Source: Bacteroidota bacterium
GTDB taxonomy: Bacteria > Bacteroidota > Bacteroidia > 2-12-FULL-35-15
Assembly (NCBI GenBank): GCA_947476185.1
Contig: CANJPX010000006.1
Span: 28,495-92,494 of the forward strand
Direction: 5' to 3'
Length of the DNA stretch: 64,000 nt
Shown here in pieces: positions 29,469 to 62,944 of this stretch. Position numbers and translations under genes: made by a program. The notes under the pieces are model-generated. The model was given only the letters and a program-made list of their open reading frames with translations, had not been told where the DNA came from and made no database searches. The first letter of the stretch is position 1, and each line of letters opens with the position of its first letter.

Positions 29469-29469
29469 T

Positions 29470-32289
29470 TTAGGCAAGACTTTTTTCTTTAGATAATTTA
29501 TTAGCTTTTATTTGATTCAATACATCTTCTGCACTGATCGGTAATTTTGTAATGCGAACACCTACTGCATTAAATACGGCATTTGCTATTGCAGGAAGTA
29601 CCGGATGAATAGCTCCTTCTCCTGCTTCCTTTGCACCGAAAGGTCCTTCCGGATCATTTGTTTCTATGATATTTGCATGGATAGGAGGAGTGTCTAATGT
29701 TGTCGGGATCTTATAATCAAGGAAATTATTGTTCACCAAAAGTCCATTGTAGTATTTCATTTGTTCACTCATTGCCTGTCCGATACCCATGTGCCATGAG
29801 CCTTCCAATTGTCCTTCAACAGCCAATGGATTTAATGCCTTTCCACAATCGTGTGCACCCCATACATTCAGTATTTTTACTTGTCCTGTTTCAGTATCCA
29901 CATCAACTTCTGCAACCACAGCACCGAATGTATAGGACGGACTTAAACCTGCTCCGGAACCTTTAAAATCTCCACCTAATTTTGGAGAAATGTATTTTCC
30001 GCTAACACTTACTGCACCTCGTTTTGCTGTTAATATATCAACTACCTCTAACCAGGATAGGTCAACTTTTTTATCGTTGCTGAATACACGGCTATCAGCA
30101 AAATTCAATTCTTCAGCTGAGATCTCTTTCACTTTTATGATCGCATCAATGATCTCTTTTTTTAAATTTTCGGCAGCATCTTTTGCTGCATTACCTGCCA
30201 TGAATGTTACGCGACTTGAGTAACTTCCAAAATCAACTGGGGTAATTAATGTATCGGCAGCAAGTACAAATAATTTATCCATGCCTAGTCCTAATACTTC
30301 CGAAACAATTATTGCAAGCATGGTATCACTTCCTTGTCCGATATCACTCGCTCCGGAGGTAATCAATACCCTTCCATCAAAATCAAGTTTTAAATGAACA
30401 ACCGATTGAGGCAATTCATTCCAGATGATTGGTAAAGCGCTTCCGCTGATAAAAAATCCGCATCCGACGCCAAGGCCATGACCGGTTTTTAATTTACCAT
30501 AGCGTTTTTTCCATTCCGATTGTTCCATTACTTTTTGTAATGATTCGCGACTTCCGTTTGAGGTGATGCGGTAATGTCCTACCGTTAAAGTGTTTGAATC
30601 AAGAAAATTTTTCATCCTCAATTCACATGGATCCATTTTAATTTTATTTGCCAGTTCATCGATCATCGACTCTACTGCAAAGCGAGTGTTAACAGCTCCA
30701 TGTCCGCGCATAGCACCACATTGTGGTTTATTGGTATAAACACGATAGGTGCGGAATCCAAAATTATCTAATTTATACGGAGCTTGCAATAACACTCCGT
30801 TGTAATAAGATGTAACAACACCAAAACTTCCGTAAGCTCCACCATCAATAGCAACATCTGCGTCTAACACTTTCATGAAACCATCCTTGGAAATACCCAT
30901 CTGAACAGTAAGTTTAGAAGGGTGTCGTCCATGATTGGTCAGGAAAACTTCCTCACGTGTCAATCGAACGCGTACAGGTCGACCTGTTTTTCTAGCGATA
31001 TGTGAAACAATAACTTCATGTGGAAAAGGATCGCTCTTCCCACCAAAACCACCACCAAGATAGGGTTTGATGACACGAACTCTGCTTAAAGGTACTTCCA
31101 TTACTTTCGCCAATGCACGATGTAAGTAGTGTGGAACTTGTGTTGCTGTGGTTATCGTTAATCCGTTTTCATCCCAAAATGCTGTGGCAGCATGTGGTTC
31201 TGTAAATCCGTGATTGATCCCTTCAAACTCAAACGACATTTTGCTTGTTACATCGGCATCAAGTAAACCTTGTTGCTGATCACCAAAACGAAGCTCTGCT
31301 TTTTTATGAATGTTGTTATTGAATTTTCCGTATTCATGGATCTTTTCATTTTCTCCAACATCATTCAATGAATCATCAATTTGTAAAAATTCCTTGATAC
31401 GCTTATATTGTACTTTTATCAGCTTACATGCTTCCGCGGCAATATCTTCGCTGTCAGCTGCAACTGCTGCAACTATTTCTCCTATGTAGCGGACCTTTTC
31501 AACTGCCATTGCTGTTTCATCCTGAGAAATGGGAAGTACTCCAAATTTGATCGGCAACTCTTTTCCGGTTGCGATGTAATGAACACCTTCCAGTTTTAAT
31601 GCTTCTGTAAGATCGATATTTTCGATTTTTGCATGCGGATAAATACTCCTTAAAAATTTGCAGTGCAATGCATTTTTTGAAACGATATCATCAGCATAAT
31701 CTGCCGATCCTTTTACTTTTTTCTCTGCTTCAATGTATGGTCTGCCAACGCCAACTGCACCGGATATCGTTTTGTAATTCGATTTCCCTTTTTCAGAAAC
31801 AGGTTTTAATCCATGTTTTTCCAATGCATATTCAGCAACTGCTTCAATGATTTTTTTGTAGCCTGTGCATCTGCATAAATTACCCGACAAGCCATCTTTT
31901 ATTTGATGGATTATTGATTCGACACCATCTTCTTTTTTTAAAGTTGGAACGAGACTCAATGATGTCATGACCATTCCTGGTGTACAAAAGCCACATTGAA
32001 TGGCTCCTTTTTCAACAAATTTCTCTTGAAGTTCGTGAAGTTCGCCATCTTTTGCGATTGCTTCGATGGTTGTAATTTCAGCATTGTCGAATCGTAATGC
32101 AGGCGTGATGCAACTCAAAACGGGTTCTTTATTTACCAATACAGTACAGGCTCCACAACTTCCCTGATCACATCCCACTTTTGTTCCTGTCAATCCAACT
32201 TTTTCCCGGATCACACTCGATAACATCTCATGATTATTAACCAATAGATCGTACTGTTTGCCGTTTATTTTTAATTTAATTTGTTTCAT
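29470..32289 (-). CDS. molybdenum hydroxylase, fused [2Fe-2S] and Mo-cofactor subunits
   Basis: A 939-residue gamma-alpha fusion. Residues 1-75 hold a plant-type [2Fe-2S] domain ('[15 protein letters not shown]'), 80-160 the all-helical second cluster ('CGFCTPGM', 'CRCTGYKK'), and about 180-915 the Mo-cofactor domains with 'GGGFGGKSDPFPHE', 'CGAMRGHGAVNTRFAVE' and the catalytic Glu in 'GAKEAGEGAIHP'. Together with the HcrB-like FAD subunit it forms a complete enzyme of the xanthine oxidase family. It lacks the CO dehydrogenase signature AYRCSFR. Substrate candidates are an aromatic CoA ester (reduction) or an N-heteroaromatic such as indoleacetate (hydroxylation); the sequence does not decide. 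Confidence 0.85.
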   Translation of the reverse strand: MKQIKLKINGKQYDLLVNNHEMLSSVIREKVGLTGTKVGCDQGSCGACTVLVNKEPVLSCITPALRFDNAEITTIEAIAKDGELHELQEKFVEKGAIQCGFCTPGMVMTSLSLVPTLKKEDGVESIIHQIKDGLSGNLCRCTGYKKIIEAVAEYALEKHGLKPVSEKGKSNYKTISGAVGVGRPYIEAEKKVKGSADYADDIVSKNALHCKFLRSIYPHAKIENIDLTEALKLEGVHYIATGKELPIKFGVLPISQDETAMAVEKVRYIGEIVAAVAADSEDIAAEACKLIKVQYKRIKEFLQIDDSLNDVGENEKIHEYGKFNNNIHKKAELRFGDQQQGLLDADVTSKMSFEFEGINHGFTEPHAATAFWDENGLTITTATQVPHYLHRALAKVMEVPLSRVRVIKPYLGGGFGGKSDPFPHEVIVSHIARKTGRPVRVRLTREEVFLTNHGRHPSKLTVQMGISKDGFMKVLDADVAIDGGAYGSFGVVTSYYNGVLLQAPYKLDNFGFRTYRVYTNKPQCGAMRGHGAVNTRFAVESMIDELANKIKMDPCELRMKNFLDSNTLTVGHYRITSNGSRESLQKVMEQSEWKKRYGKLKTGHGLGVGCGFFISGSALPIIWNELPQSVVHLKLDFDGRVLITSGASDIGQGSDTMLAIIVSEVLGLGMDKLFVLAADTLITPVDFGSYSSRVTFMAGNAAKDAAENLKKEIIDAIIKVKEISAEELNFADSRVFSNDKKVDLSWLEVVDILTAKRGAVSVSGKYISPKLGGDFKGSGAGLSPSYTFGAVVAEVDVDTETGQVKILNVWGAHDCGKALNPLAVEGQLEGSWHMGIGQAMSEQMKYYNGLLVNNNFLDYKIPTTLDTPPIHANIIETNDPEGPFGAKEAGEGAIHPVLPAIANAVFNAVGVRITKLPISAEDVLNQIKANKLSKEKSLA

Positions 32290-34769: not shown

Positions 34770-36788
34770 ATGGCCTATAATTTTAAAGATAGAGAGATCA
34801 CAAAGATCTCTGTAATTGGTGCTGGACAGATTGGTCCAGACATTGCATTGCATTTTGCAAAATCACTTTCACCATTCGGTGTAGTTATAAATGTTATTGA
34901 TATTTCTCCTGAGGCATTGGAGAAAGCGAAAGCGAAAGCACATAAAAAAATTCAGAAAGGGTTAGAGTCGGGTGCGTTTAAGCCTGAACTGGCTGAAAAG
35001 ATAAAGAACGCCTTGGTATTTTCTGCTGATTACGAAAATGTACGCGGCTCACAAATTGTTGTGGAAGCAGCAACTGAAGATGAAAATATCAAAGACAAAA
35101 TTTTTAGACAGGTAGAATCACTTACTGATGATAAATGTATTTATCTTTCTAACTCTTCGCATATGCAGCCGGAAGTCATATTCCGGAATATTAAAAATAA
35201 ATCCCGCAGTTTAGTGGCACATTATTTTTTTCCTGCAGAAATAAATTTAGTTGTTGAATTGGTTCCCGGTAAAGAAACAGATGCTGATCTGGTAAATCTA
35301 TTACTTGGATTTTATGAGGCGATCGGAAAGGTTCCTATCAAAGTAAAAAGTTCTTACGGCTATGCCATAGATCCTGTTTTTGAAGGTATTTGTCAAACTG
35401 CCATCATGTGTTTGGAAAAGGGTTGGGGAACTGAAAAGGAAATTGATACTGCTGCAGTGAAATCTTTAGGCTTGGGCATTGGGCCTTTTACTGCCTTAAA
35501 TCTTACAGGAGGAAATCCTATTACTGCACATGGATTGGATGAATTGGGGAAATTAGTAATGCCTTGGTTCAAAACCCCGAATATTCTTCACGAAAAAAAT
35601 AAGAGTAAAGAACTTTGGAACACTGCTCAACGTGGTGAAAAAGTTGAACTGTCTCCTGAGAAAGAAGAAAAATTAGTAAAAGAATTTCAAGGTGCATTCT
35701 TTGCATTAACATCTTTTATTTTAGATCTGGATATCGTTGATATTAATGATTTTAATATGGCGTGTGAGATGTCACTTGTTATCCGGGCACCATTCTCATT
35801 TATGAATAAAGTGGGCATCGATAAGTCTTACGGATTGGTTAAAGATTTTTGTGCAACACATCCGACTTTTACATTCCCGAAAATCTTGGATAAAGCAAAA
35901 GCAGCTGGAGTTTGGAAATTACAGGACATTATTGCTACTAAACTCGATGGTGTTTGTGTGCTGACAATCCGCAGACCGAAAGTTTTAAATGCACTGAATC
36001 TCGAAGTGCTTGGTCAGATAAAAAATGAATTGGAGAATGTGAAGAATGATGATTCTGTTAAAGCTGTTGTTATTACCGGATTTGGAACTAAAGCATTTGT
36101 GTCCGGTGCCGATTTGAATATGCTTGCATCTTTAAAAACTCCCGAAGAAGGATATAATAATTCTCATACTTTTCAATCTGTGTTGAATTATGTTGAAAGC
36201 TTTGCTAAACCAGTAGTGTGTGCTATGAACGGTTTTGCATTTGGTGGTGGAAATGAATTAGCAATGTCTTGTACGGCACGTATTTGTAAGAAAGGCTTGC
36301 CTGTTTTGGTTTGTCAACCTGAAGTGAACTTAGGATTTATTCCGGGTGCAGGTGGAACCCAACGTCTACCGCGTATTGTAGGAGTTGAAAAAGCTGCTGA
36401 AATATTGCGTACGGCTAGAAATGTTTCGGCAAAAGAAGCAGCTGAGATTGGATTAGTATACAAAGAGGTGGAAGGGGATCTGGTTGATGAAGCAGTAAAA
36501 TTTGCAAAACAAATTGCATCCGGTGATGTTAAAGTGAAAACAATTCCGCAGGATGCTATCTCGACAAATGGAAACCCAATACAACTGGAGATAGGACATT
36601 TGAGCAAAAAAATTGATGAGATAATTGTAAAAGCGATCTATGAAGGTTCTCACTTGAGTTTGAAGGATGGTCTTGAATTAGAATCACGGATGTTCGGAGA
36701 ATGTCTTTTAACAGAGGATATGAAAATTGGTTTGGAAAATTTCAAATCGAACGGACCAAAAGCTAAAGCGAATTTTATTCATAAATAG
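34770..36788 (+). CDS. 3-hydroxyacyl-CoA dehydrogenase/enoyl-CoA hydratase fusion
   Basis: A 672-residue bifunctional beta-oxidation enzyme. The dehydrogenase part comes first (about 1-390; NAD motif '[17 protein letters not shown]'; His and Glu of the catalytic dyad 12 residues apart in '[18 protein letters not shown]') and the crotonase part second (about 395-665; '[11 protein letters not shown]', '[11 protein letters not shown]', '[19 protein letters not shown]', both catalytic Glu present). The order is opposite to FadB. In the proposed pathway it hydrates 2-aminocinnamoyl-CoA and oxidises the 3-hydroxy product. It is the first gene of the long operon. Confidence 0.88.
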
Positions 36789-36789
36789 A

Positions 36790-38922
36790 ATGAAGTATAA
36801 TGTAGGTATTGATATTGGTGGAACCTTTACAGATCTTATCTGTGTTTCATCTGACGGTAGGACCATTGTTCATAAAACACTTTCTACTCCGCATGATTCT
36901 TCTGTTGGATTCATAAATGGTATCCGCGAAGTTGCAGAAATGACAGGAGAAACTTTTGAGAAATTTGTTTCTTCAATTGATACAATTGTTCATGGAACAA
37001 CGGTTGCAACAAATGCACTGTTGACCTTGAAAGGAGCAAAAACTGCACTTGTAACGACTAAAGGTTTTCGTGATGCATTGGAAATGAGAAGAGGTATCCG
37101 TGAGGAACAGTTTAATAATCATTATAAAAATGTTGTTCCCTTAGCGCCACGTTATTTGCGATTTACGGTAGACGAACGAATTGATTCTGAAGGAAAGATT
37201 TTGAAGAAATTTTCTGAGAAAGAACTTCTTCCGATCATTAAAAAGATCAAGGATGAAAAAGTAGAATCTGTTGCAGTTTGCTTCATGAATTCTTACAAGA
37301 ATTCATCACATGAAAAACAAGCATTAAAATTTCTTCGTAAAAATCTGAAAGGAATTTTTGTTACGGCTTCCTTTGAAGTACTTCCTTCAATTCGCTTTTA
37401 TGAAAGAATTAGTACAACAACCGTTAGTGCTTTTGTCGGACCTATTGTAGCGAAGTATTTGGATAATCTTACTCAGAAATTAGAAAGCATAAATTACAAA
37501 GGCACACTATTGATCATGCAATCAAATGGTGGTGTGGTTGTTCCTGATCAGGTAAAGAAAAATCCGGCTGTAACGGTTTTATCAGGGCCTGCTGCTGCTC
37601 CGACTGCTGGTGCATTTTATTCCAAATTACTTGGATTTAAAAATTGTATCACCGCTGATATGGGTGGAACAAGTTTTGATGCTGCCATCGTTATCGATAA
37701 TCAATGTGTAACCAGTACCGAAGGAAATATCAATCGTTATCGTATTGCTCTTCCTTCTCTTGATATTATTACAATTGGTGCAGGTGGCGGAAGTATCGGT
37801 TGGATAAATGAAGGAGGATTGTTGCAGATGGGTCCGCAAAGTGCCGGTGCAATGCCTGGTCCGGTATGTTACGAACGTGGTGGATCTGTTCCTACTTGTA
37901 CGGATGCCGATATTATTCTTGGTTATCTTAATCCTGATTTTTTTGCCGGAGGGAAATTAAAACTAAATAAAGCAAAAGCAGAGAAAGCAATAAAAACGGA
38001 TCTGGCCGCAAAACTTGGATTGTCTGTATTGGAAACTGCTGCCGGAATGTTTCGTATCATCAATAGCAATATGGCTCAAGGTGTTCGCGAAATTTCTGTT
38101 GAACGAGGTTATGATCCGAGAGAATTTTTATTTATTGTGGCAGGTGGTGCCGGCTCAATTCACTCTTCCGAAATATGCAAGGAATTGGAAATTCCGATGT
38201 TCCTTGTACCAAATGTCTCTTCTATTTTTTGTGCTGCAGGAATGTTATTGGGTGATCTGAAACATGACTATATCCGCTCTTATTTTACCTCATTTACGAA
38301 TCTTGATAGAAAAAAATTTATTTCTCTGTATAATGAAATGAAGGAGGATGGAATTCATGCATTGGTTGATGAAGAAGGAGTTTCACGTGAAAAGATTTCT
38401 TTTTCTCCGATTCTTGATATGCGTTATCTAGGTCAATACCACGAAGTGCAAATGGAAGCATCCTGGGATGATGTAATGAATTTTGATCTTAAAAAAATAT
38501 TTGAATTATTCCATAAAGAACACAATCGTCAGTTTGGATATTCCTTGAAAGAGGAAGGGACAGAAATGGAACTCATCAATGTTCGTTTGCGTGTTGTTGG
38601 AAAAACGGAGCGCCCAAGGTTTCTTTCAGAAAATAATAATTCTGTTACAGCTGAATCGGCTATTAAGGAGTATAGAGAAGTTTATATTCCTGAACTGAAT
38701 AAGATGAAAAAAGTTCCGATCTATGATGGCGACAAACCTATTTTCGGATCAAAGATAAATGGACCTTGTGTAATTGAAAAGATTACCACTTCTGTATTTA
38801 TCAGCGAAAACTACGACTGTGAGGTGGATAGTTTTGGTTCATTTATAGTATATGAAAAGAAAAAATTTCCAAACGGATTTCAATTGAAACAAAAACTTAC
38901 TGAAGTAAATGAAAGTAGATAA
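36790..38922 (+). CDS. hyuA: hydantoinase/oxoprolinase family subunit A
   Basis: A 710-residue ATP-dependent amidohydrolase subunit, start ATG at 36790 just after the previous stop (the ORF track extends 21 codons upstream). Motifs are 'NVGIDIGGTFTDLICV' (ATP-binding, actin-like), 'IVHGTTVATNALLTLKGAK', 'LSGPAAAPTAGAFYSK', 'ADMGGTSFDAAI' and 'GAGGGSIGW'. With HyuB it hydrolyses cyclic amides (5-oxoproline, N-methylhydantoin) using ATP. In anaerobic indoleacetate degradation the homologous pair opens the lactam of oxindole-3-acetate to 2-aminophenylsuccinate; that role is proposed here from context. Confidence 0.88.
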   Translation: MKYNVGIDIGGTFTDLICVSSDGRTIVHKTLSTPHDSSVGFINGIREVAEMTGETFEKFVSSIDTIVHGTTVATNALLTLKGAKTALVTTKGFRDALEMRRGIREEQFNNHYKNVVPLAPRYLRFTVDERIDSEGKILKKFSEKELLPIIKKIKDEKVESVAVCFMNSYKNSSHEKQALKFLRKNLKGIFVTASFEVLPSIRFYERISTTTVSAFVGPIVAKYLDNLTQKLESINYKGTLLIMQSNGGVVVPDQVKKNPAVTVLSGPAAAPTAGAFYSKLLGFKNCITADMGGTSFDAAIVIDNQCVTSTEGNINRYRIALPSLDIITIGAGGGSIGWINEGGLLQMGPQSAGAMPGPVCYERGGSVPTCTDADIILGYLNPDFFAGGKLKLNKAKAEKAIKTDLAAKLGLSVLETAAGMFRIINSNMAQGVREISVERGYDPREFLFIVAGGAGSIHSSEICKELEIPMFLVPNVSSIFCAAGMLLGDLKHDYIRSYFTSFTNLDRKKFISLYNEMKEDGIHALVDEEGVSREKISFSPILDMRYLGQYHEVQMEASWDDVMNFDLKKIFELFHKEHNRQFGYSLKEEGTEMELINVRLRVVGKTERPRFLSENNNSVTAESAIKEYREVYIPELNKMKKVPIYDGDKPIFGSKINGPCVIEKITTSVFISENYDCEVDSFGSFIVYEKKKFPNGFQLKQKLTEVNESR

Positions 38923-40582
38923 AATATTAGTTTCCATTTTTCAACGTGCCTTCAAATCCATCACGGATGAGATGAGCATCTCATTGACAAAAACTACACG
39001 CTCTCCGATCTTATGTGAAGCAAAAGATTTTGTGACAGGTCTTTACGATGCAAAAGGCCAAATGCTTGAGCAAACAGAGAACCTTCCTATTCTTTCTTTT
39101 TCTTTAGGACCTGTTTGTAAAGTGATATTGGAGCAATATGGAAAAGAGATCCACGAAGGCGATGTGATCATTCACAACGACGTTTTCACCATGGGAAATC
39201 AGAACAATGATGTGGCGATCTTTAAACCTATTTTTCACGAAAATGAATTAGTTGGATGGTCTGCTGCAAAAGGTCATCAAGCTGATATTGGCGGAGCCGT
39301 TCAAGGTGGATACAATCCGAATGCAACTGAAGTTTGGCAGGAAGCAATACGGATTCCTGCTGTGAAATTATATGAAAAAGGAAACTTTCGTAAAGATGTT
39401 TGGAATTTGATCTTTGCGAATATCCGTCTTCAAATGGTTCAGGAAGATATAAAAGCACAAATTGGTGCATGTACACTTGGTGAACGGAGATTACAGGCAT
39501 TTGTCGCAAAATATGGATTGGAAGTTTTTGAAGCGCACAAAATAGCATTGTTCGATTCTACAGAAAAAATGATGCGCGCGGAAATTAAAAATATTCCAAA
39601 CGGTGTATATAAAGGCGGTAGTACTGTGTATTATGATGGTAAACACAAAGGAAGTAAATTCCCTATTCGTACCGAGATCACTGTAAGGAATGAAGATATC
39701 ACTTTTGATTTTTCAAAATCATCGCCACAAACAAAAGGATTTGTTAACGGGATATATACTTCAACGTGCTCTGCAATCACCCTTACTTTCTTGCAGATGA
39801 TTAATCCGAATATTCCACACAATGAAGGAATGATAAAACCTTTAAAATATATCGTACCTGAAGGAACAATTCTGAATGCTTCTTATCCTGCAGCGACAAC
39901 ATTTGGAAATCATCTTTGTCCGCAAATAGCTGATGCTATTTTTAAGGCACTCGGTCCTGCAGTTCCTGAAAGGATTACAGCCGGTTGGAATCACTTATTG
40001 TGTTCCCTCTTCACGGGTAATCATCCGCGTACAGGTAAAAAATATGTGGACATCTGTTTCCTTGGATTAAAGGGTGGCAGTGGTGCAATGAAAAATGATG
40101 ATGGTTATGATCACATTGGAATGATTGATGCTTCCGGTGGTGTGCTGGATCAGGATTATGAAATGTATGAACAGCAAACGCCCCATTTAATTGTGCAACA
40201 CGAATATTTATGTGACTCCGGTGGAGCAGGTCAGTGGCGCGGTGGATTAGGTACCTCAACTCAAATCATGCTTCGTGGTGACGATACCACAATGGTTGTT
40301 TTTGGTGATGGAGATGTGGAAACCAATTATGGTTTATTTGGTGGTAAGGGCAGCGTCCTTAATAAGATCGAGTTAAAATATAAAAATGGAAAAAAAGTTA
40401 TTCCTATGAGTAAAGATATGATTCATGGAATTCCTAATAACACCTTGTACCATCAAATAGCCAGTGGTGGCGGCGGATATGGAAATCCGAAAAAGCGCGA
40501 TAGGGAAAAGTTGAAACAAGATGTGAAGAATGAAGTCGTTTCAAAAAAAGTTGCTGAAAAAATTTATGGTCTAAAAAAATAA
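38909..40582 (+). CDS. hyuB: hydantoinase/oxoprolinase family subunit B
   Basis: A 557-residue HyuB family protein overlapping hyuA by 14 bases. Motifs are 'TKTTRSPILCEAKDFVTGLYD', split here as an N-terminal conserved block, 'GDVIIHNDVFTMGNQNNDVA', 'GWSAAKGHQADIGG', 'KGFVNGIYTSTCSAI' and the C-terminal glycine-rich 'IASGGGGYGNPKKRD'. It is the partner of HyuA. There is no acetone-carboxylase gamma subunit (AcxC) next to the pair, which argues for amidohydrolase rather than ketone carboxylase activity. Confidence 0.88.
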   Translation: MKVDKILVSIFQRAFKSITDEMSISLTKTTRSPILCEAKDFVTGLYDAKGQMLEQTENLPILSFSLGPVCKVILEQYGKEIHEGDVIIHNDVFTMGNQNNDVAIFKPIFHENELVGWSAAKGHQADIGGAVQGGYNPNATEVWQEAIRIPAVKLYEKGNFRKDVWNLIFANIRLQMVQEDIKAQIGACTLGERRLQAFVAKYGLEVFEAHKIALFDSTEKMMRAEIKNIPNGVYKGGSTVYYDGKHKGSKFPIRTEITVRNEDITFDFSKSSPQTKGFVNGIYTSTCSAITLTFLQMINPNIPHNEGMIKPLKYIVPEGTILNASYPAATTFGNHLCPQIADAIFKALGPAVPERITAGWNHLLCSLFTGNHPRTGKKYVDICFLGLKGGSGAMKNDDGYDHIGMIDASGGVLDQDYEMYEQQTPHLIVQHEYLCDSGGAGQWRGGLGTSTQIMLRGDDTTMVVFGDGDVETNYGLFGGKGSVLNKIELKYKNGKKVIPMSKDMIHGIPNNTLYHQIASGGGGYGNPKKRDREKLKQDVKNEVVSKKVAEKIYGLKK

Positions 40583-40585
40583 ATT

Positions 40586-40987
40586 ATGAATCACGAAATA
40601 ATTTTGCCTGATGGCTGGCCGATTCCTAAAGGTTATTCAAATGGAATTCTTGCTGCAAAAGGAAGAACACTTTTTCTGGCAGGGCAAGTTGGTTGGACAC
40701 CTGAGGAAAAATTTGCGAGTGATAAATTGGTACCTCAGTTTGAGCAGGCACTGAAAAATATTGTTGCAATTGTAAGCAAAGCTGGTGGTAAACCTGAACA
40801 CATCTGCAAGATGACCTGTTTCTGCAAAGACCGAGAGCAATATTTAGCCAACAGAAGAGAGTTAGGAAAGATCTGGAAGGAAATAATTGGCAATCATTAT
40901 CCATGTATGAGTATGATCTTTATAGTTGATCTTTTAGATCATCCCGCAGTTATTGAAATTGAAGCCACAGCTGTTATACCTGAATAA
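40586..40987 (+). CDS. RidA family protein
   Basis: A 133-residue RidA/YjgF/Rid family protein: 'KGYSNGILAAKGRTLFLAGQVGW' and the C-terminal 'DHPAVIEIEATAVIP'. The Arg and Glu expected in active imine deaminases are partly present: 'EIEATAVIP' is conserved, but the usual CKVTVFL-like Arg region reads 'CKMTCFCKDREQYL', so it may belong to a Rid subgroup with another activity. It begins 3 bases after hyuB and overlaps the acyl-CoA dehydrogenase start (TAATG). Removal of a reactive enamine or imine from an aromatic-amine intermediate is a plausible role (inference). Confidence 0.85.
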   Translation: MNHEIILPDGWPIPKGYSNGILAAKGRTLFLAGQVGWTPEEKFASDKLVPQFEQALKNIVAIVSKAGGKPEHICKMTCFCKDREQYLANRRELGKIWKEIIGNHYPCMSMIFIVDLLDHPAVIEIEATAVIPE

Positions 40988-42117
40988 TGGATTTTGAACT
41001 AAGTGATATACAAAAACAAATACAACTGACTTTTCGCGATTTTGTGGATAGGCGCGTGAAGCCTGTTGCGGGCAAGTTAGATGAAGAGAAGAAATTCCCA
41101 ACAGAACTTTTTAAGGAAGTGGGTGATATGGGTTTTTTTGGAATGCGTTATCCCGAAAATGCTGGTGGTAGTGGATTAGATATTGTTTCATACTCCCTTG
41201 CTGTGATCGAAATGGCTCGAGGTTCTCTTTCTCTTGCAGCTGCTTGCACAATGCAATCGTTGATGGGAACTTATTTTTTATATCGTTTTGGCGATAAAGA
41301 AATTAAAGAGAATTATTTTGATGAAGCATTGAAAGGAAATAAGATCGGTGGAATATGCATGACGGAGCCCAATGCAGGAAGTGATCTGATGGCAATAAAA
41401 ACAATTGCGAAAGTTACTGAAGATGGTTTTATTTTAAACGGACAAAAGACCTGGGTTACATCAGCCCCCGTGGCTGACTTTTTTACTGTGCTTGCAAGAA
41501 CAGATAATCACGAACAACTTTCCATATTTTTTGTTCCTTCCAATTTAAAAGGAGTACTAATAGGAAAGAGTATTGAAAAGATGGGGGTTCGCGCCTCTGT
41601 TACCAGTGAAGTTTCTTTCAGTGATGTGAAGCTTCCAAAAAAATATTTACTTGGAGAAATTGGTGGCGGGACAAAATGTCTGAAAGAAATTCTTGCTGAA
41701 ATAAGAATTATGACTGCTGCTCTTGCAATAGGCGTTGCTACAGCGGCCTATGAAGATGCATTAAAATATGCCAATGAACGTTCTCAATTCGGAAAACCAA
41801 TCGGGAAATTCCAGGCGGTGCAAATGAAGTTTGCAGACATGGCTGTTCAGTTAGAAACAGCGAAACTTTATGTTTTTTTTGCTGCAACTTTAAGTGATCA
41901 GAATAAACCGCGACAAAAAGAAGCTATGATCGCAAAATTATATGCCTCTGAAATTGCAAATACTATTTGTGATGAAGCTTCCCGTGTGTTGGCATCATAC
42001 GGTTATGCAGTTGAATATAACATTGAGAGATATTTGCGTGATGCCCGATTTACACTTATTGGCGGTGGTACTTCAGAAATATTGAAAATAAATATTGCAA
42101 AAGAATTAGGATTATGA
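40987..42117 (+). CDS. acyl-CoA dehydrogenase lacking catalytic Glu; candidate benzylmalonyl-CoA dehydrogenase
   Basis: A 376-residue flavoprotein of the acyl-CoA dehydrogenase family, with 'GGICMTEPNAGSDLMAIKT' and 'WVTSAPVADFFTVLAR' at the FAD site and 'ERSQFGKPIGKFQAVQ' near the end. The usual catalytic base, Glu of 'YEGTSE', is Gly360 ('LIGGGTSEI'). The alternative Glu of isovaleryl/long-chain enzymes, just before the conserved Arg, is Ile ('LAEIRI'). Loss of both fits an enzyme where decarboxylation of a malonyl-CoA forms the enolate and no proton abstraction is needed, as expected for IaaF-type benzylmalonyl-CoA dehydrogenase. It is translationally coupled to its neighbours on both sides. 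Confidence 0.85.
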   Translation: MDFELSDIQKQIQLTFRDFVDRRVKPVAGKLDEEKKFPTELFKEVGDMGFFGMRYPENAGGSGLDIVSYSLAVIEMARGSLSLAAACTMQSLMGTYFLYRFGDKEIKENYFDEALKGNKIGGICMTEPNAGSDLMAIKTIAKVTEDGFILNGQKTWVTSAPVADFFTVLARTDNHEQLSIFFVPSNLKGVLIGKSIEKMGVRASVTSEVSFSDVKLPKKYLLGEIGGGTKCLKEILAEIRIMTAALAIGVATAAYEDALKYANERSQFGKPIGKFQAVQMKFADMAVQLETAKLYVFFAATLSDQNKPRQKEAMIAKLYASEIANTICDEASRVLASYGYAVEYNIERYLRDARFTLIGGGTSEILKINIAKELGL

Positions 42118-43238
42118 GCGTTGAAATAAAAGAGAACCAACTGATCATGGATGGTTCAGAACTTATCATAGAATCATTGGCCCGATCGGGTGCAGACGTT
42201 TTTATAGGCTATCCGATAACACCGGCAAATTTACTTTATTCCAATTCGCTTGAACGTTTTCCATCATTCTTTGCTGCCCCTGATGAGATTTCAGCGCTTC
42301 AATGGATGTGTGGTTTTTCCACCACTGGAAAGTTTCCGGTGACTGCTACATCATTTCCCGGTTTTGCTTTGATGCTGGAATCTGTAAATATGGCGTATAT
42401 GATGGAATTGCCAATGTTGATCATTCTTGTACAACGACTTGGACCCGCAACTGGAAGTGCTACATGTGGTGCACAAGGTGATCTTGCATTACTGACCGGA
42501 GCAATATCAGGTGGATTTTCTTTACCGGTTATAAGTGTCAGCAGTATGAAAGATTGTTGGGAATTATCCCACAACGCTATGAAAATGGCGATTGATCTCA
42601 GGACACCTGTTGTTTTGTTAACTTCAAAAGAAGAGATCATGACGCTTGCTAGTTTTGCGATCTCACAACTTTCAGAAATTAATTTGCTTGAACGAAAACA
42701 GTATTCAGGAGCAGAAACTTTTGTTCCTTATAAAACAAATGAAACGTTAGTTCCTGATTTTTTACCGGTAGGTGACAAGAAAAATCAGGTTCGTTATACT
42801 GCATCAACACATGATCAGAAAGGAATAATTCAAAACACTTCAAAAGAGGCGATCGATAATACCAAGCGATTGGAGTTGAAACATCAAAAAAATCTAAAAC
42901 ATCATTTATATTACGAATATGATGGTGAAAAAGGAGCAAATACACTTTTGATCTCCTATGGGATAACGGCTTCTGCAAGCAGAGAAGCTGTTAAAAATTT
43001 AAGGGAGCAAGGAGAAAAAGTTTCTCTTTTGATACCAAAAACTTTATTGCCTGTTGCACCCGAATATTTCGATATAATTGAGAAATACAATAAAATAGTG
43101 ATCGCAGAAGAAAATTTATCCGGGCAGTATAGGAAAATTCTTTTTGGAGAATTTGGAAATAAAAAAGTATCGGGTGTAAATGGAATTGCGGAAATGATCA
43201 CACCCGACAGGATAACGGAAGTGGTTTTGTCTAAATAA
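42114..43238 (+). CDS. 2-oxoacid:ferredoxin oxidoreductase alpha subunit
   Basis: A 374-residue pyrimidine-binding subunit with 'GADVFIGYPITPANLLY' (usual ITPxxE changed to ITPAN), 'PDEISALQWMCGFSTTGK', 'TSFPGFALMLESVNMAYMME' and 'VQRLGPATGSATCGAQGDL'. It works with the beta-gamma fusion encoded 15 bases downstream. It overlaps the acyl-CoA dehydrogenase gene by four bases (ATGA). The substrate is unknown. It is divergent from the KorAB pair and from the VOR-like set at 48.2-50.9 kb, so it should act on a different 2-oxoacid, perhaps an aryl one. Confidence 0.85.
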   Translation: MSVEIKENQLIMDGSELIIESLARSGADVFIGYPITPANLLYSNSLERFPSFFAAPDEISALQWMCGFSTTGKFPVTATSFPGFALMLESVNMAYMMELPMLIILVQRLGPATGSATCGAQGDLALLTGAISGGFSLPVISVSSMKDCWELSHNAMKMAIDLRTPVVLLTSKEEIMTLASFAISQLSEINLLERKQYSGAETFVPYKTNETLVPDFLPVGDKKNQVRYTASTHDQKGIIQNTSKEAIDNTKRLELKHQKNLKHHLYYEYDGEKGANTLLISYGITASASREAVKNLREQGEKVSLLIPKTLLPVAPEYFDIIEKYNKIVIAEENLSGQYRKILFGEFGNKKVSGVNGIAEMITPDRITEVVLSK

Positions 43239-43253
43239 TTTTTTGCAAGAAAA

Positions 43254-44582
43254 ATGGAACTAGAAAAGAAAAAATTTTTAACGGATGCTGATCTGCCTTT
43301 CTGCAAAGGATGTGGACACAACCATATTGCCGCTAATACTGAGAAAGCGCTTCAACTTTTGGGATACGATCCAATGAATGTTGTTCTTGTAACAGATATT
43401 GGCTGTCACGGAATTATTGACAAATCATTTTTAACACATACTGTTCACGGACTTCATGGTCGATCTGTGGCATTGGCGACAGGCGTTTCTGCGGCTTTGA
43501 ATAATCCTGAAAAAAAGGTGATCGTTTTTATTGGTGATGGTGGAGCAACAATTGGAATGCAACATTTAATTGATGCAGCTCATAATGGATTTAATATGAC
43601 TGTGGTGATCCATAATAATATGCTTTATGGAATGACCGGCGGACAACCGAGTGAATTTACACCGGCAGGATTTAAAACACCGACATTACCTGATGGAGGA
43701 AAAAAGACCGGCTATGATATTTGCAAATTAATAGCTGCTGTTGAAGGGGCATCTTATGTTTGCCGTCTGGAAGGGATTTCTGATTTCTCGGAACAGTTGG
43801 CTGAAGCCTTTTCGAAAAAAGGTTTTTCATTGGTTGAAGTGATGGAAATTTGTCCGAGCTATGGAGTAAAATCCAATCCGGGAATGAAGCTTTCTAAAGT
43901 GATAGAAAACGCAGGACTTATCATAAATAAATTTGTAGATAGAGAAGTTGATAATTATAAAACAGAAGTTAAAACCGAGTTCAGATCACTTTTCAGCGAG
44001 AGCGATGCTATTCAAACAAAATTCCCTTCGAAGTTAGAAAAGCCTGTCCGGTTGATGCTTTGCGGTTCTGCCGGTGAAGGAGTTCAAGCTGCAGCTGAAT
44101 TTATTTTGAAGGCAGGAATAACCTCCGGTTTGAATGGAACAAAAAAAGGAAGTTATCCTGTTACAGTTGGTGTCGGATTTTCGGCAGCTGAAATTATTCT
44201 TTCTTCAGAAGAAATTCTATATACTGGATCACCCAATCCTGATGTGATCTGCGTTACTTCCTCAGATGGTTTGGAGTATGCACGAAAAACACTTGCAAAT
44301 ATGAAAGGAGGGAAATTGTTTATTGATAGTTCTCTCAAAGCTCCTGACACAAAAGCAGAAGTTATTTATTTTCCATTTCGTGAAAGAGGCGGTGCAAAAA
44401 ATTCATCGATATATAGCATCTTTTATTTTTTGACGAAAACTCAATTGTTTCCTATGGATTCACTGCTAAGTGTTTTTAATGAAAATAAAATTGCCAAAAA
44501 GTTTGATCAGGATAAAATGTTTCAGGCTTTAAATGAGCCTTTTGTTGATGGATTGACAGATAACAAAAAAGTAATTGTATAA
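43254..44582 (+). CDS. 2-oxoacid:ferredoxin oxidoreductase beta-gamma fusion
   Basis: A 442-residue fusion. The N-terminal half is the TPP-binding beta subunit ('PFCKGCGHNHIAANTEKAL', 'TDIGCHGIIDKSFLTHTVHG', 'IGDGGATIGMQHLIDAAHN', 'NMLYGMTGGQPSEF'); the C-terminal ~170 residues are the gamma domain ('LMLCGSAGEGVQAAAEFIL'). Beta-gamma fusion is an uncommon order; KorA in this same window is instead gamma-alpha. There is no dedicated ferredoxin subunit beside it. It is followed directly by the DUF35 fusion gene with no gap (stop codon then ATG). Confidence 0.85.
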   Translation: MELEKKKFLTDADLPFCKGCGHNHIAANTEKALQLLGYDPMNVVLVTDIGCHGIIDKSFLTHTVHGLHGRSVALATGVSAALNNPEKKVIVFIGDGGATIGMQHLIDAAHNGFNMTVVIHNNMLYGMTGGQPSEFTPAGFKTPTLPDGGKKTGYDICKLIAAVEGASYVCRLEGISDFSEQLAEAFSKKGFSLVEVMEICPSYGVKSNPGMKLSKVIENAGLIINKFVDREVDNYKTEVKTEFRSLFSESDAIQTKFPSKLEKPVRLMLCGSAGEGVQAAAEFILKAGITSGLNGTKKGSYPVTVGVGFSAAEIILSSEEILYTGSPNPDVICVTSSDGLEYARKTLANMKGGKLFIDSSLKAPDTKAEVIYFPFRERGGAKNSSIYSIFYFLTKTQLFPMDSLLSVFNENKIAKKFDQDKMFQALNEPFVDGLTDNKKVIV

Positions 44583-45950
44583 ATGAGTTATATTAAATCA
44601 TACGGAATTGCATTGCCTCATTTCAGAGTTGAGGACAGCACACTTCATCCTTCGGGTAAAAAGGGGGGTATGAAAGCTGTTTGTTTTGCCGATGAAGATA
44701 TCATTACATTGGCTTTTGAGGCATCATGTAATATAAATAAAGAAGGTGTCGATGGAATATTTTTTGCAACATCATCCTCTGTTTTTAATAATCGTTATCA
44801 CGCTTCTTTTCTTGCAGATCTGTTAAATCTTTCTCAAGGAATTTTAGCACTTGATTTTACGAACTCCGCCCGAAGCGGAACAGATGCTCTTCTTTTAGCA
44901 AATGATTTGATCGGTTCAGGTAAATACAAAAATATTTTAGTCGTGTCAGCAGATGTGAATTTTCCGAAAATAGGTAAAGAAAGATCAACACCTTTTGGTC
45001 ATGCAGCTTGCGCCATACTATTAAGTAAAGAAAAAGGAATTGCAGAGATCACAAGTTCCGGATCGTATAGTTCTTCTTTGGCAGAAGAATTCTCTTATAA
45101 ATCAAATACAATACAAAATGATCCACGGTACAGTCGTGATGCAGGATTCAAAAATAATATTACAACTACTATAAAGAGGATTGTTTCGAAGCCGGATTCT
45201 TTTGATGCTATTATTCTTAATTCACTTTATGCACGAATGGCAGGTGGGATTTTTGCAAAAGCAGGGTATACGGAAACCCAATTTGCAAAAGATTCTCTTA
45301 CTTCTAAAATTGGTAATACGGGTTCCACGCATGCACTTCTGCTGCTTATTAATGAATTAGAGAATGGAAAGAAAAGTATTTTACTGGCAGATTATACTAA
45401 CGGAACAAATTTGTTTGAAATAAAAACATTTACGTTTCCTGAAAATAAATGTTTACAAGAACAACTGAGTAAATATGATCTGATCAATTGTTATCAGGAT
45501 TATTTGCTTTTAAGAAAAGCAGGGAATTTTGGATCTTTCACATACACTACGAAAGAAATGTTTTCATCTGAAATGATGCATGAAAGAGAGAAAGATACAT
45601 TGCAATATTTAAAAGGATTGAAATGTGATATGTGTGGAACAATCTATTACCTGAAAGCTGCAAGATGTAAAAAATGCAAGTGTGAAACTTTTTCAACGGT
45701 CCAACTTTCAAAAACAGGTAACGTTTATGCCTTTACTTCTGAACATTATTTCCCTTCCTCTTTTCCTCCAATTACCTTGGTAATCGTTGATCTTGATGGA
45801 GGAGGAAGAATGACTGTTCAGCAAACTGATACGTTACTACCTGAAAAAAATAAAATGGAAATAGGTGTAAATGTGAAATTGGTTTTGAGGAAAATGATTG
45901 AAAATGATGCAAAACCAAATTATTTCTGGAAAGCAAAACAAAATGGGTAA
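44583..45950 (+). CDS. HMG-CoA-synthase-like protein fused to DUF35 zinc-ribbon/OB domain
   Basis: A 455-residue fusion. Residues 1-310 have the thiolase fold of HMG-CoA synthase/KAS III type, but the nucleophilic Cys of 'TNACYGGT' is replaced: 'FTNSARSGTDALLLAND' has Ala96. Residues 340-455 are a DUF35 module: a rubredoxin-like zinc ribbon (CxxC, ten residues, CxxC in 'LKCDMCGTIYYLKAARCKKC') and an OB fold ('TVQLSKTGNVYAFTSEHYFP'). DUF35 proteins partner thiolases in BbsAB (toluene), Ltp2-ChsH2 (steroids) and archaeal HMG-CoA synthesis. The next gene is a thiolase overlapping by 8 bases, so this is probably its non-catalytic or aldolase-like partner. Confidence 0.82.
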   Translation: MSYIKSYGIALPHFRVEDSTLHPSGKKGGMKAVCFADEDIITLAFEASCNINKEGVDGIFFATSSSVFNNRYHASFLADLLNLSQGILALDFTNSARSGTDALLLANDLIGSGKYKNILVVSADVNFPKIGKERSTPFGHAACAILLSKEKGIAEITSSGSYSSSLAEEFSYKSNTIQNDPRYSRDAGFKNNITTTIKRIVSKPDSFDAIILNSLYARMAGGIFAKAGYTETQFAKDSLTSKIGNTGSTHALLLLINELENGKKSILLADYTNGTNLFEIKTFTFPENKCLQEQLSKYDLINCYQDYLLLRKAGNFGSFTYTTKEMFSSEMMHEREKDTLQYLKGLKCDMCGTIYYLKAARCKKCKCETFSTVQLSKTGNVYAFTSEHYFPSSFPPITLVIVDLDGGGRMTVQQTDTLLPEKNKMEIGVNVKLVLRKMIENDAKPNYFWKAKQNG

Positions 45951-47127
45951 GCAAACAGATATAGCAATCATAGGAATCGGTGTTACAAAATTCGGTGAAT
46001 TGTTTCATCAGAGTTATGATGACCTGGTTCGTGATGCAGCATTACAAGCTGTTGCTGATGCGAAAATTTCCTTGGATGATATTGGGGCGGCGTGGTTATC
46101 AACTGCTTTTCCGGAAATAGGAGTTTTCAAAGGAAGAAGCGGAATGGATCTTAGCGAGCCGCTTTCATTATATAATATACCTGTAACGCGGGTTTCAAAT
46201 TTTTGTGCTTCCGGTGCTGATGCTATTCGTAATGCCATTAATGCTTTACGTGCAGGAGAGTGTGATGTGGCAATGGCACTTGGTGTTGAAAAACTTCGTG
46301 ATCGTCAGCCTCAGGATAGCATTGTAAAAATGATGGTGGAATATGGTCACCCCTTTTTGCAAAAAGGATTTACTGCTGCAGGCACTTTTGCTGTTTATGC
46401 GAATAGGATGATGAAAGAATTTGGTCTGACTCGGGAAGATATTTCAAATGTTTCTGTGAAGAATCATTTTCACGGCTCCTTAAATGATAAAGCTTTTTAT
46501 CGTAAACCTTGTACTCTTGAAGAAGTGATGCGGTCTCAAATGGTTGCAGATCCTCTGACTGTTTTGGATAGCTGCCCGACAACGGATGGAGCTGCCTGTG
46601 TAATTATGGTTCGTGCTGAAGATGTTGATAAGAAAAAGCATAATCCTGTTTTTGTTAAAGGCCTTGGTTTGTCTGTTTCTACCGGATGGGATCTGCCTTT
46701 TTTCGATCCGAATCATGATTTCCTTTCTTTCGAAGCAACCCGTAATGCGGCAAAAATGGCTTACAAACAAGCTGGAATTACTGATCCGATCGAAGAACTT
46801 GATCTGGTTGAAGTGCATGATTGTTTTTCAATAGTGGAATTACTTACGTATGAAGATCTTGGTTTATGTAAACAAGGGGAGTCAAAAGATTTGATTCGCG
46901 GTAAGGAAACACAACTTGGTGGAAAAATTCCGGTAAATGTTAGTGGAGGACTTTTATCATGCGGTCATCCTGTTGGAGCAACAGGAATAAGAATGGTAGT
47001 TGAAGTTTCAAATCATTTGCGTGGTAATGCCGGTGAACGACAAGTTAAAAATGCAAAGAGAGGATTAACACATAACATTGGTGGTCCCGGTGCTATTGCA
47101 TCAGTTATAGTTTTAGAAAAATATTAA
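45943..47127 (+). CDS. thiolase (SCPx/BbsB-like), candidate 2-aminobenzoylacetyl-CoA thiolase
   Basis: A 394-residue thiolase, start ATG at 45943 ('MGKQTDIAIIGIGVTKFGEL'), overlapping the DUF35 fusion gene by 8 bases. The active-site Cys88 is present in 'SNFCASGADAIRNAINAL', with 'EVHDCFSIVELL' and the second Cys/His region 'GGLLSCGHPVGATGIR' and 'HNIGGPGAIASVIVL'. It resembles the thiolases that need a DUF35 partner (benzylsuccinyl-CoA thiolase BbsB). In the proposed pathway it cleaves 3-oxo-3-(2-aminophenyl)propanoyl-CoA to 2-aminobenzoyl-CoA and acetyl-CoA. Confidence 0.87.
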   Translation: MGKQTDIAIIGIGVTKFGELFHQSYDDLVRDAALQAVADAKISLDDIGAAWLSTAFPEIGVFKGRSGMDLSEPLSLYNIPVTRVSNFCASGADAIRNAINALRAGECDVAMALGVEKLRDRQPQDSIVKMMVEYGHPFLQKGFTAAGTFAVYANRMMKEFGLTREDISNVSVKNHFHGSLNDKAFYRKPCTLEEVMRSQMVADPLTVLDSCPTTDGAACVIMVRAEDVDKKKHNPVFVKGLGLSVSTGWDLPFFDPNHDFLSFEATRNAAKMAYKQAGITDPIEELDLVEVHDCFSIVELLTYEDLGLCKQGESKDLIRGKETQLGGKIPVNVSGGLLSCGHPVGATGIRMVVEVSNHLRGNAGERQVKNAKRGLTHNIGGPGAIASVIVLEKY

Positions 47128-50903: not shown

Positions 50904-51287
50904 ATGAAAGTTCTTTTAGCAAAGCCCGGTCTTGATGGCCACGATGTTGGAGTTAAAGTATTAGCTCATGGATTAATAGAAGCTGGATTTAAAGTAGTTT
51001 ATACCGGACTCAGAAAAACAATTGAAGAGATCGTAGATATGGCGACTGAAAATAAAGTTGATATTATCGGGATGTCAATTCTTTCAGGAACACATTTGGT
51101 TCTTGCAAAAAAAATGAAGGAAGTAATGGACGAAAGAAAATTAAATATTCCTTGGTTTGTTGGAGGAAATATTCCTGCAAAAGATATTGATGAGTTAAAA
51201 AAAATCGGGGCAGCACAAGCTTTTCCTACCGGAAGCAAAGTGATGGATGTGGTGGCCTATTTTAATGCAATAAAAATAACAGCATAA
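50904..51287 (+). CDS. B12-binding small subunit of acyl-CoA mutase
   Basis: A 127-residue cobalamin-binding domain with the base-off/His-on signature D-x-H-x-x-G ('KPGLDGHDVGVKVLAHGL', Asp11, His13, Gly16), 'GMSILSGTHLVL' and 'FVGGNIPAKDI'. It is the separate small subunit of an adenosylcobalamin-dependent mutase whose large subunit is encoded 26 bases downstream. The split resembles archaeal methylmalonyl-CoA mutase, isobutyryl-CoA mutase and the IaaGH mutase of indoleacetate degradation. Confidence 0.92.
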   Translation: MKVLLAKPGLDGHDVGVKVLAHGLIEAGFKVVYTGLRKTIEEIVDMATENKVDIIGMSILSGTHLVLAKKMKEVMDERKLNIPWFVGGNIPAKDIDELKKIGAAQAFPTGSKVMDVVAYFNAIKITA

Positions 51288-51313
51288 TTAAATTATTAAA
51301 ATTTTCAACAATC

Positions 51314-52948
51314 ATGGCTGATGCAAAAATAAAATCTATGAAAGGTAAAACTGCGAAGGAGTTAAATGTAAAGCCGGTTTTTCTTGAATCCGGATTAGAA
51401 GTGAATCCTGTTTATACTGCAGAAGATTTGAATGCAACAAGTAGTACTCATGAGATGCCGGGCGAATATCCTTTCACCCGTGGTATTCATCCTACAATGT
51501 ATCGCAATAAACCATTTACTATTCGTCAATATGCCGGATTTGCATCTCCTGAAGAAACCAATGAACGATTTCAATTTTTAATAAAAAACGGACAATCAGG
51601 ATTAAATGTTGCTTTTGATCTTCCAACACAATGCGGACTCGATTCCGATGATCCACGGGCTTTTGGTGAAGTTGGAAGAGTTGGGATGTCGATTGACACA
51701 TTACATGATTTTGAAATTGCATTTAAAAATATTGACCTTGATAAGATAACAGTTTCAATGACAATTAATGGAACTGCAATTATTCTGATTGCCATGTATA
51801 TCGCTATGGCAGAAAAAGCAGGATATGATATTTCTACACTTCGAGGGACTGCTCAAAATGATATATTGAAAGAATTTATCGGTAGAGGAACCTGGATCTT
51901 TCCCGTTGATAAATCCGTTAAATTGGTGGTTGATACAATCGAATATTGCGCTAAGCATGTTCCTAAATATAGTCCTGTTAGTGTCTGCGGATATCATATC
52001 AGAGAAAGTGGAGCTAACCCGATCCAGGAAATGGCATATGCTTTCTGTATCGCAAAGGCTTATACTGATGGAGCATTGAGCAGAGGAATTACAATCGATG
52101 ATTTTGCATCACGACTGTCATTCAATTTTGATATTTATGGAAATCTTTTTGAACAGGTTGCAAAATTCCGTGGAGGAAGAAGATTGTGGGCGAAAATAAT
52201 CCGTGAAGAGTATGGTGCAAAAAAAGACAGTTCTTGTTGGTTGAGAATGATCGCTGGTGGAGGTGGAGGAGGATTAACAAAAGAACAACCTGAAAATAAT
52301 ATTGTACGAAGTGCCTACTATGCATTGATAAGTGCGCTTTCCGGGACGCAAACAATGGCTCTTTGTAGTTATGATGAAGCGTATACAATTCCTACAGAAC
52401 ATTCTGCCGAAATTTCTTTGCGTACCATGCAGATCATGATCCATGAAATGGGCATATGTGATACAGTTGATCCTTTAGGCGGTTCTTATTATGTAGAAGC
52501 ATTGACTGATAAATTTGAGGAAGAAATTAAAAAAGAAATGAAAACGGTTGAGAAGTGGGATGGAATAATTAATGCAGTTGCAACCGGAAAGATTCAGGAG
52601 TCTGTTTCTAAACAAGCATATGTGAGAGAAATGGGAATGCAGACCGGTAAAGTTCCTAAAGTAGGTGTAAATATTTATACCAGAGAAGAAGAAGCAAAAG
52701 ATGTTGAATTTCATCCCTACAATTTAAAAGCAGCAAATGCTCAAATAGGGGAATTGAAAACAACAAAAGCAGCAAGAGATTCTGAAAAGGTAAAAGCGTG
52801 TTTGGCATTGGTAAAACAAGATGCAATAGAGGATAAAAATTTAATGCCCTCGATAATTGCTGCAGTAAAAGAATATTGTACAGTGGGTGAAATTGTTTCT
52901 GCAATGAAAGAAGTGTATGGAGAATTTAAAGAACCAATATTTTTTTAA
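51314..52948 (+). CDS. B12-dependent acyl-CoA mutase large subunit; candidate arylsuccinyl-CoA mutase
   Basis: A 544-residue methylmalonyl-CoA-mutase-family large subunit. By alignment to Propionibacterium MCM, Tyr89 (here Y73), Gln197, the carboxylate-binding Arg207 (R191, 'KEFIGRGTW') and His244 (H228, 'CGYHIRESG') are kept. Tyr75 is His59 and Arg82 is Lys66. The 'THSQTSG' segment is 'MIAGGGGGG': His328 becomes Ile313 and Gln330 becomes Gly315, inside six consecutive Gly. The enzyme should thus act on a dicarboxylic acyl-CoA with a bulkier group than methylmalonyl, fitting 2-aminophenylsuccinyl-CoA to 2-aminobenzylmalonyl-CoA. It lacks the signature residues of 2-hydroxyisobutyryl- and isobutyryl-CoA mutases. 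Confidence 0.85.
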   Translation: MADAKIKSMKGKTAKELNVKPVFLESGLEVNPVYTAEDLNATSSTHEMPGEYPFTRGIHPTMYRNKPFTIRQYAGFASPEETNERFQFLIKNGQSGLNVAFDLPTQCGLDSDDPRAFGEVGRVGMSIDTLHDFEIAFKNIDLDKITVSMTINGTAIILIAMYIAMAEKAGYDISTLRGTAQNDILKEFIGRGTWIFPVDKSVKLVVDTIEYCAKHVPKYSPVSVCGYHIRESGANPIQEMAYAFCIAKAYTDGALSRGITIDDFASRLSFNFDIYGNLFEQVAKFRGGRRLWAKIIREEYGAKKDSSCWLRMIAGGGGGGLTKEQPENNIVRSAYYALISALSGTQTMALCSYDEAYTIPTEHSAEISLRTMQIMIHEMGICDTVDPLGGSYYVEALTDKFEEEIKKEMKTVEKWDGIINAVATGKIQESVSKQAYVREMGMQTGKVPKVGVNIYTREEEAKDVEFHPYNLKAANAQIGELKTTKAARDSEKVKACLALVKQDAIEDKNLMPSIIAAVKEYCTVGEIVSAMKEVYGEFKEPIFF

Positions 52949-57525: not shown

Positions 57526-57942
57526 ATGTTGAAAAGTTGGCCCTATAATATTACCCCTAACAAAGTAATTTCTACCGAAATTGGTGATATATTTATCGAT
57601 GAAAATGGTGTCTTGGTCATGCGGTATACAAGCGATCTTGATTTTGGGCTGGAAATGGCTAAGTCTGCTATCAAAATCTGTGAGGATATAGTTGGTGATC
57701 ATAAGGTTCCGGTTATGGTAATTACCGGAGAATTTGGTAGTATGTCGACCGAGACTCGTGAATATCTTTCAGGTAAAGAAGTTGCAAAACACAGAAAGGC
57801 TGTTGCTCTGGTTGTCAATAATTTATCTCATAGATTAATAGCACAGTTTATCATTAAAATGAGGAATAAATATTATCCAACACAAGTTTTCAAAAATGAA
57901 GAAGAAGCCTTAATTTGGCTAAATAAAATAAATGAATCATAA
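57526..57942 (+). CDS. small STAS-like protein between iorA and iorB
   Basis: A 138-residue alpha/beta protein ('VLVMRYTSDLDFGLEMAKSA', 'KVPVMVITGEFGSMSTETRE', 'AVALVVNNLSHRLIAQFII'). The pattern of strands and helices resembles the STAS/SpoIIAA-like or SEC14-like small proteins of Bacteroidota, but the match is by eye and weak. It sits between iorA and iorB, starts one base after iorA and overlaps iorB by 11 bases, so it is likely made with the complex. Role unknown. Confidence 0.5.
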   Translation: MLKSWPYNITPNKVISTEIGDIFIDENGVLVMRYTSDLDFGLEMAKSAIKICEDIVGDHKVPVMVITGEFGSMSTETREYLSGKEVAKHRKAVALVVNNLSHRLIAQFIIKMRNKYYPTQVFKNEEEALIWLNKINES

Positions 57943-59070: not shown

Positions 59071-59085
59071 GAATAACATTTTACA

Positions 59086-61407: not shown

Positions 61408-61445
61408 TTTTTAATTGACAAATTTACGTTGAGGTAGAAAAGAGT

Positions 61446-62921: not shown

Positions 62922-62944
62922 TTCACCATAAAAATATCTTAGTA

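Follow-up and report, generated by a model that had tools for sequence, protein, structure and literature searches.

A predicted decarboxylating (2-aminobenzyl)malonyl-CoA dehydrogenase that lacks an acid at two known acyl-CoA dehydrogenase base positions, encoded in an iaa-type gene cluster of a Bacteroidota bacterium

The window analysed here (the whole stretch of 64,000 nucleotides from a Bacteroidota bacterium) contains a run of genes on one strand, from 34770 to 63808, around an acyl-CoA dehydrogenase gene that we designate iaaF. Its open reading frame (40987–42117, +) starts with ATG, encodes 376 residues and has no internal stops. The features of the run are as follows; percentages are identities to genes of the region that we take to be the iaa region of Aromatoleum aromaticum.

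34770–36788, +: 3-hydroxyacyl-CoA dehydrogenase/enoyl-CoA hydratase fusion, predicted to act in beta-oxidation of 2-aminocinnamoyl-CoA; conserved in Bacteroidota loci
36790–38922, +: hyuA, hydantoinase/oxoprolinase A, the subunit predicted to open the lactam ring in the iaa pathway (49%)
38909–40582, +: hyuB, hydantoinase/oxoprolinase B (65%)
40586–40987, +: gene of the RidA family, lying between hyuB and iaaF and ending in a stop that shares one base with the iaaF start
40987–42117, +: iaaF, predicted decarboxylating (2-aminobenzyl)malonyl-CoA dehydrogenase with GGG for YEG (from sequence, domains, orthology, tree and model)
41698–41706, +: codons of Glu238-Ile239-Arg240; Ile239 is at the base position of isovaleryl-CoA dehydrogenase, Glu238 is not invariant in the clade
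42055–42081, +: codons of LIGGGTSEI, residues 357–365; GGG is 359–361 and the missing base corresponds to Gly360
42114–44582, +: alpha and beta(+gamma) genes of a 2-oxoacid:acceptor oxidoreductase; the start overlaps the iaaF stop (ATGA)
44583–47127, +: HMG-CoA-synthase-like/OB-fold protein with a thiolase; the pair weakly resembles BbsAB and is predicted to thiolyse 2-aminobenzoylacetyl-CoA
50904–52948, +: IaaGH-like B12-dependent mutase, small (48%) and large (66%) subunits
52955–54160, +: type III CoA-transferase, IaaL-like (47%)
54162–57524, +: indolepyruvate oxidoreductase alpha fused to GltD-like FAD/NAD(P) and 4Fe-4S domains
57932–58531, +: indolepyruvate oxidoreductase beta
58546–63808, +: molybdenum hydroxylase (xanthine-dehydrogenase type), subunits at 58546–59070, 59086–61407 and 62945–63808 (46%, 51% and 33% to the A. 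aromaticum iaa-region subunits)
61446–62921, +: class-V aminotransferase-like gene between molybdenum hydroxylase subunits

The best NCBIfam match of hyuA is caprolactamase alpha, below cut-off. The RidA gene, which perhaps serves to clear a reactive imine or enamine, recurs in 45 of 68 Bacteroidota-type loci and in none of the 12 others (L082–L093). Of 80 other loci, only 5 have 2-oxoacid:acceptor oxidoreductase genes next to iaaF. Elsewhere in the window, on the opposite strand (28536–32289, −), lies a 4-hydroxybenzoyl-CoA-reductase-like molybdenum enzyme, its 2Fe-2S and molybdopterin subunits fused in a 939-residue open reading frame that is followed by the FAD subunit; the NCBIfam models it fits best are those for 4-hydroxybenzoyl-CoA reductase, with scores below cut-off.

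All three acyl-CoA dehydrogenase domains of the window IaaF (N-terminal, middle and C-terminal) score well over their Pfam cut-offs, the FAD-site motifs TEPNAGSD and KTWVTS are intact, and the predicted structure adopts the full acyl-CoA dehydrogenase fold (mean pLDDT 93.4, TM ~0.95 to short-chain acyl-CoA dehydrogenase, SCAD). Intact FAD motifs and a confident fold model together point to a complete flavoprotein rather than a decayed gene. Aligned with rat SCAD (1jqi), residues 357–365 read LIGGGTSEI against EIYEGTSEI, with Tyr replaced by Gly359 and Glu by Gly360, which places the protein outside the canonical SCAD/MCAD/glutaryl type (catalytic Glu in YEG). In human isovaleryl-CoA dehydrogenase (1ivh, GLDLERLVL) the catalytic Glu aligns with Ile239, next to the conserved Arg240, and the protein thus also differs from the isovaleryl-/long-chain type (Glu directly before the helix Arg). 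An acid is missing from both of the known base positions checked, 360 and 239. The original prediction had read LIGGGTSEI as replacing IYEGTSEI, with Glu changed to Gly360, and had placed an Ile at the alternative Glu position before the conserved Arg. Both readings are borne out, the former by the SCAD alignment and the relatives described next, the latter by the 1ivh and tree alignments.

One scan of named genomes returned 80 relatives (57–90% identity), and GGG is invariant in all 79 that cover the site, among them the nine from the same phylum in alignment A1. Such invariance argues against a chance event or sequencing error, as does the far greater distance of same-genome acyl-CoA dehydrogenases: four others found in the window genome share 33–38% identity with the window IaaF. 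Two paralogues that have also lost the YEG Glu, L104 (GAG) and L107 (VGG), carry a Glu at the alternative position, unlike the IaaF clade. Two further signatures set the clade apart: residues 333/336/337 are R..AS, against Q..GG in almost every other acyl-CoA dehydrogenase of the alignment, and MQSLM at residues 89–93 is invariant. Both are candidate determinants, judged from the alignment, of specificity or of an unusual electron acceptor.

Our reference for A. aromaticum IaaF is a gene in a Rhodocyclales-family genome (the family of locus L089) that we infer to be EbN1. In a comparison made with this gene of the inferred EbN1 region, rather than with the published accession WP_011236983, the window IaaF shows 57% identity over 375 residues, full length and with no truncation. 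Besides the acyl-CoA dehydrogenase itself, the 20-kb region around the reference gene encodes a GntR regulator, thiolase, AMP-forming CoA ligase, HyuA, HyuB, both mutase subunits (small and large), a molybdenum hydroxylase in three subunits, a CoA-transferase of type III and a periplasmic binding protein, a content that agrees with the published components IaaB, IaaF, IaaGH, IaaL and IaaM. We computed a maximum-likelihood tree from 36 IaaF rows (A. aromaticum among them), 12 paralogues and rat SCAD, 49 proteins in all. A single branch (support 99/99; 98% of bootstrap trees) separates the IaaF rows from the rest. Paralogues sampled from the same genomes share ≤38% identity. To our knowledge, the A. 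aromaticum enzyme is the sole characterised member of this clade.

Beyond overall identity, the two proteins share GGG, MQSLM and the tetrapeptide AEIR at the alternative base site, and both loci combine hydantoinase, mutase, molybdenum hydroxylase and CoA-transferase genes. The hydantoinase, mutase (IaaGH) and CoA-transferase (IaaL) expected of an iaa operon all lie in the window, and hydantoinase or mutase genes occur within the fetched flank of 76 of the 80 relatives (two of the four exceptions are contigs <5 kb). The window gene differs from its A. aromaticum counterpart in its Bacteroidota host and in being flanked by RidA and oxoacid oxidoreductase genes; its cluster has no IaaB ligase and carries an indolepyruvate oxidoreductase instead. 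The alignment put forward with the original prediction as a check, against IaaF and isovaleryl-CoA dehydrogenase, gives a full-length match to the former and Ile239 at the base position of the latter.

The original prediction had not mentioned Glu238, two residues before Arg240. The protein might be an ordinary acyl-CoA dehydrogenase whose base has been relocated to Glu238 or another acid, as in isovaleryl- and long-chain acyl-CoA dehydrogenases; the precedent in isovaleryl-CoA dehydrogenase is documented, and Glu238, close to the alternative base position, is kept in 33 of 36 aligned clade members. The known site, however, aligns with 239 (Ile in 35/36), one helix position off 238, and residue 238 is Gln or Lys in L084, L085 and L086, all three with hydantoinase and mutase neighbours; we reject Glu238 as a required base on the latter ground. 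We likewise reject an acid in the 80–100 segment, the area in which cyclohexanecarboxyl-CoA dehydrogenase presumably uses an Asp, since none is present there (SLSLAAACTMQSLMGTYFLYR). The inferred A. aromaticum IaaF moreover shares AEIR, and IaaF is reported to decarboxylate benzylmalonyl-CoA (PMC8360864), leaving a relocated base very unlikely.

Loss of the Glu is insufficient as a sole guide to function, because the isovaleryl-CoA, sulfinopropionyl-CoA, carnitine-type and pimeloyl-type subfamilies are also without it (PMC8360864); the IaaF assignment is supported instead by orthology and gene context. Isovaleryl-CoA dehydrogenase has a comparable C-terminal motif (GAG) but takes its base from the Glu directly before the conserved Arg, where the window protein has Ile. 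Glutaryl-CoA dehydrogenase shares the fold, FAD and oxidative decarboxylation; it differs in keeping the YEG Glu and in oxidizing first, with loss of the gamma-carboxylate after (PMC8360864), and its NCBIfam model NF045552 scores 288 on the window IaaF against a cut-off of 470. The 3-sulfinopropionyl-CoA desulfinases also have the fold without the Glu (AGG), and their NCBIfam model gives a sub-threshold match, which could suggest a base-less fold performing a non-redox elimination, akin to the removal of sulfite from a sulfino group. That model (NF042439) scores 248 bits, far under its cut-off of 600, and the protein groups with IaaF amid iaa neighbours; we consider a desulfinase-like reaction extremely improbable.

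Schuhle et al. (2021, PMC8360864) presented the GGG motif as the feature that marks every IaaF orthologue. The published class forms an isolated branch of the acyl-CoA dehydrogenase tree, is homotetrameric, converts benzylmalonyl-CoA to cinnamoyl-CoA, and does not use ETF or artificial dyes. For IaaF, CO2 loss has been proposed to replace alpha-proton abstraction, the reaction being measured and the mechanism proposed (PMC8360864). On the strength of the orthologue, GGG, the single clade and the iaa neighbours, the window gene is very probably iaaF, encoding the (2-aminobenzyl)malonyl-CoA dehydrogenase that serves an anaerobic pathway of the indoleacetate (iaa) type, with CO2 loss in place of alpha-proton abstraction; the same evidence supports the IaaF-like decarboxylating benzylmalonyl-CoA dehydrogenase of the original prediction. 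The family and its proposed mechanism have been known since 2021, and the window protein is a correctly predicted further member.

From orthology to the published enzyme, we infer the substrate, reaction, mechanism and pathway direction as follows. The B12 mutase encoded nearby would supply an arylmethyl-malonyl-CoA, whose alpha-carboxylate would occupy the space taken by the Tyr and Glu side chains in ordinary acyl-CoA dehydrogenases. Loss of CO2 from the alpha-carbon would then provide the electrons that normally come from alpha-proton abstraction, a hydride would pass from the beta-carbon to FAD, and 2-aminocinnamoyl-CoA would be released. The hydratase/dehydrogenase fusion and the cluster thiolase could convert this product to 2-aminobenzoyl-CoA and acetyl-CoA. 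That CO2 loss might generate the enolate with no base had been part of the original prediction, and coincides with the mechanism proposed for IaaF (PMC8360864).

The same mechanism could operate on a different substrate, if the protein were a true IaaF-type decarboxylase of another 2-substituted (aryl- or alkyl-) malonyl-CoA in a pathway that reuses iaa modules. A. aromaticum IaaF slowly turns over some medium-chain alkylmalonyl-CoAs, and its physiological aminobenzyl substrate was unavailable for testing (PMC8360864); the window also holds further aromatic modules, such as the 4-hydroxybenzoyl-CoA-reductase-like enzyme, and the RidA and oxoacid oxidoreductase genes are missing from the A. aromaticum iaa region examined. 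Against this, the lactam-opening hydantoinase, molybdenum hydroxylase, IaaL-like transferase and indolepyruvate oxidoreductase jointly fit indole, and we regard another substrate as improbable.

Gene content suggests how the pathway is entered. Indolepyruvate oxidoreductase alpha makes up residues 17–612 of the 1120-residue fusion encoded at 54162–57524, which resembles an indolepyruvate oxidoreductase linked to NAD(P) and has a 76%-identical copy in the iaa cluster of a congener. Strong indolepyruvate oxidoreductase matches occur at 31 loci among the 80 relatives. The IaaB ligase is present only in betaproteobacterial-type loci, themselves without indolepyruvate oxidoreductase, and the best IaaB match in the window genome is not a close one (36%, over part of the length). 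The window cluster thus fits an indole-ring catabolism that would be entered from indolepyruvate. We are evenly divided on a broader proposal, that a separate form of the iaa pathway exists in Bacteroidota and related phyla, in which an indolepyruvate oxidoreductase with a fused NAD(P)H-dehydrogenase-like domain takes indolepyruvate from tryptophan directly to indoleacetyl-CoA, with no free indoleacetate or IaaB and with an IaaF acceptor yet to be identified. We found no published account of a Bacteroidota iaa cluster with the fused oxidoreductase and no IaaB, nor any mention of IaaF in Bacteroidota, in the literature searched (coverage that leaves out most subscription journals). In the congener's cluster, between the CoA-transferase and IorA (L133:8164–12561), is a 1465-residue protein that matches BcrAD/BadFG ATPase twice and also DUF2229; no close copy of this protein was found in the window genome.

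Anaerobic use of the aromatic-CoA product is plausible given a second cluster in the window genome (contig C39, L144; 1139–15811), which encodes subunits C, B, A and D of a class I benzoyl-CoA reductase together with a 6-oxocyclohexene-carbonyl-CoA hydratase and a 6-hydroxycyclohexene-carbonyl-CoA dehydrogenase. Reductase subunits B and C exceed their curated cut-offs, D falls slightly short and A misses by more; the cut-offs of the models for the following ring-processing enzymes (dearomat_had and dearomat_oah) are both exceeded.

Searching with the genome's own ETF found no ETF gene near iaaF in the window or in the fetched flanks and loci, and ETF was rejected as neighbour and acceptor for this reason. 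The single ETF pair of the window genome lies on another contig, and ETF:quinone oxidoreductase gave no match there.

These results show that a base-less acyl-CoA dehydrogenase can be recognized, and its reaction predicted, from sequence and context. They also widen the range of IaaF past the lineages in the 2021 paper, to MAGs labelled Bacteroidota, Ignavibacteriota, Fidelibacterota (Marinimicrobia), Calditrichota, Planctomycetota, Acidobacteriota and Myxococcota. These provide new hosts in which to seek the IaaF electron acceptor, and natural variation, including the Glu238 variants, with which to test CO2 loss in place of proton abstraction. Counting the window genome, a close IaaF copy is present in 8 of 36 genomes of its own family and in 2 of 396 sampled phylum members; a plasmid search gave matches all <60% identity (best 43%). 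The copy in L030, a MAG labelled Candidatus Competibacteraceae (Gammaproteobacteria), is nested within the Bacteroidota clade, reflecting either transfer or mis-binning.
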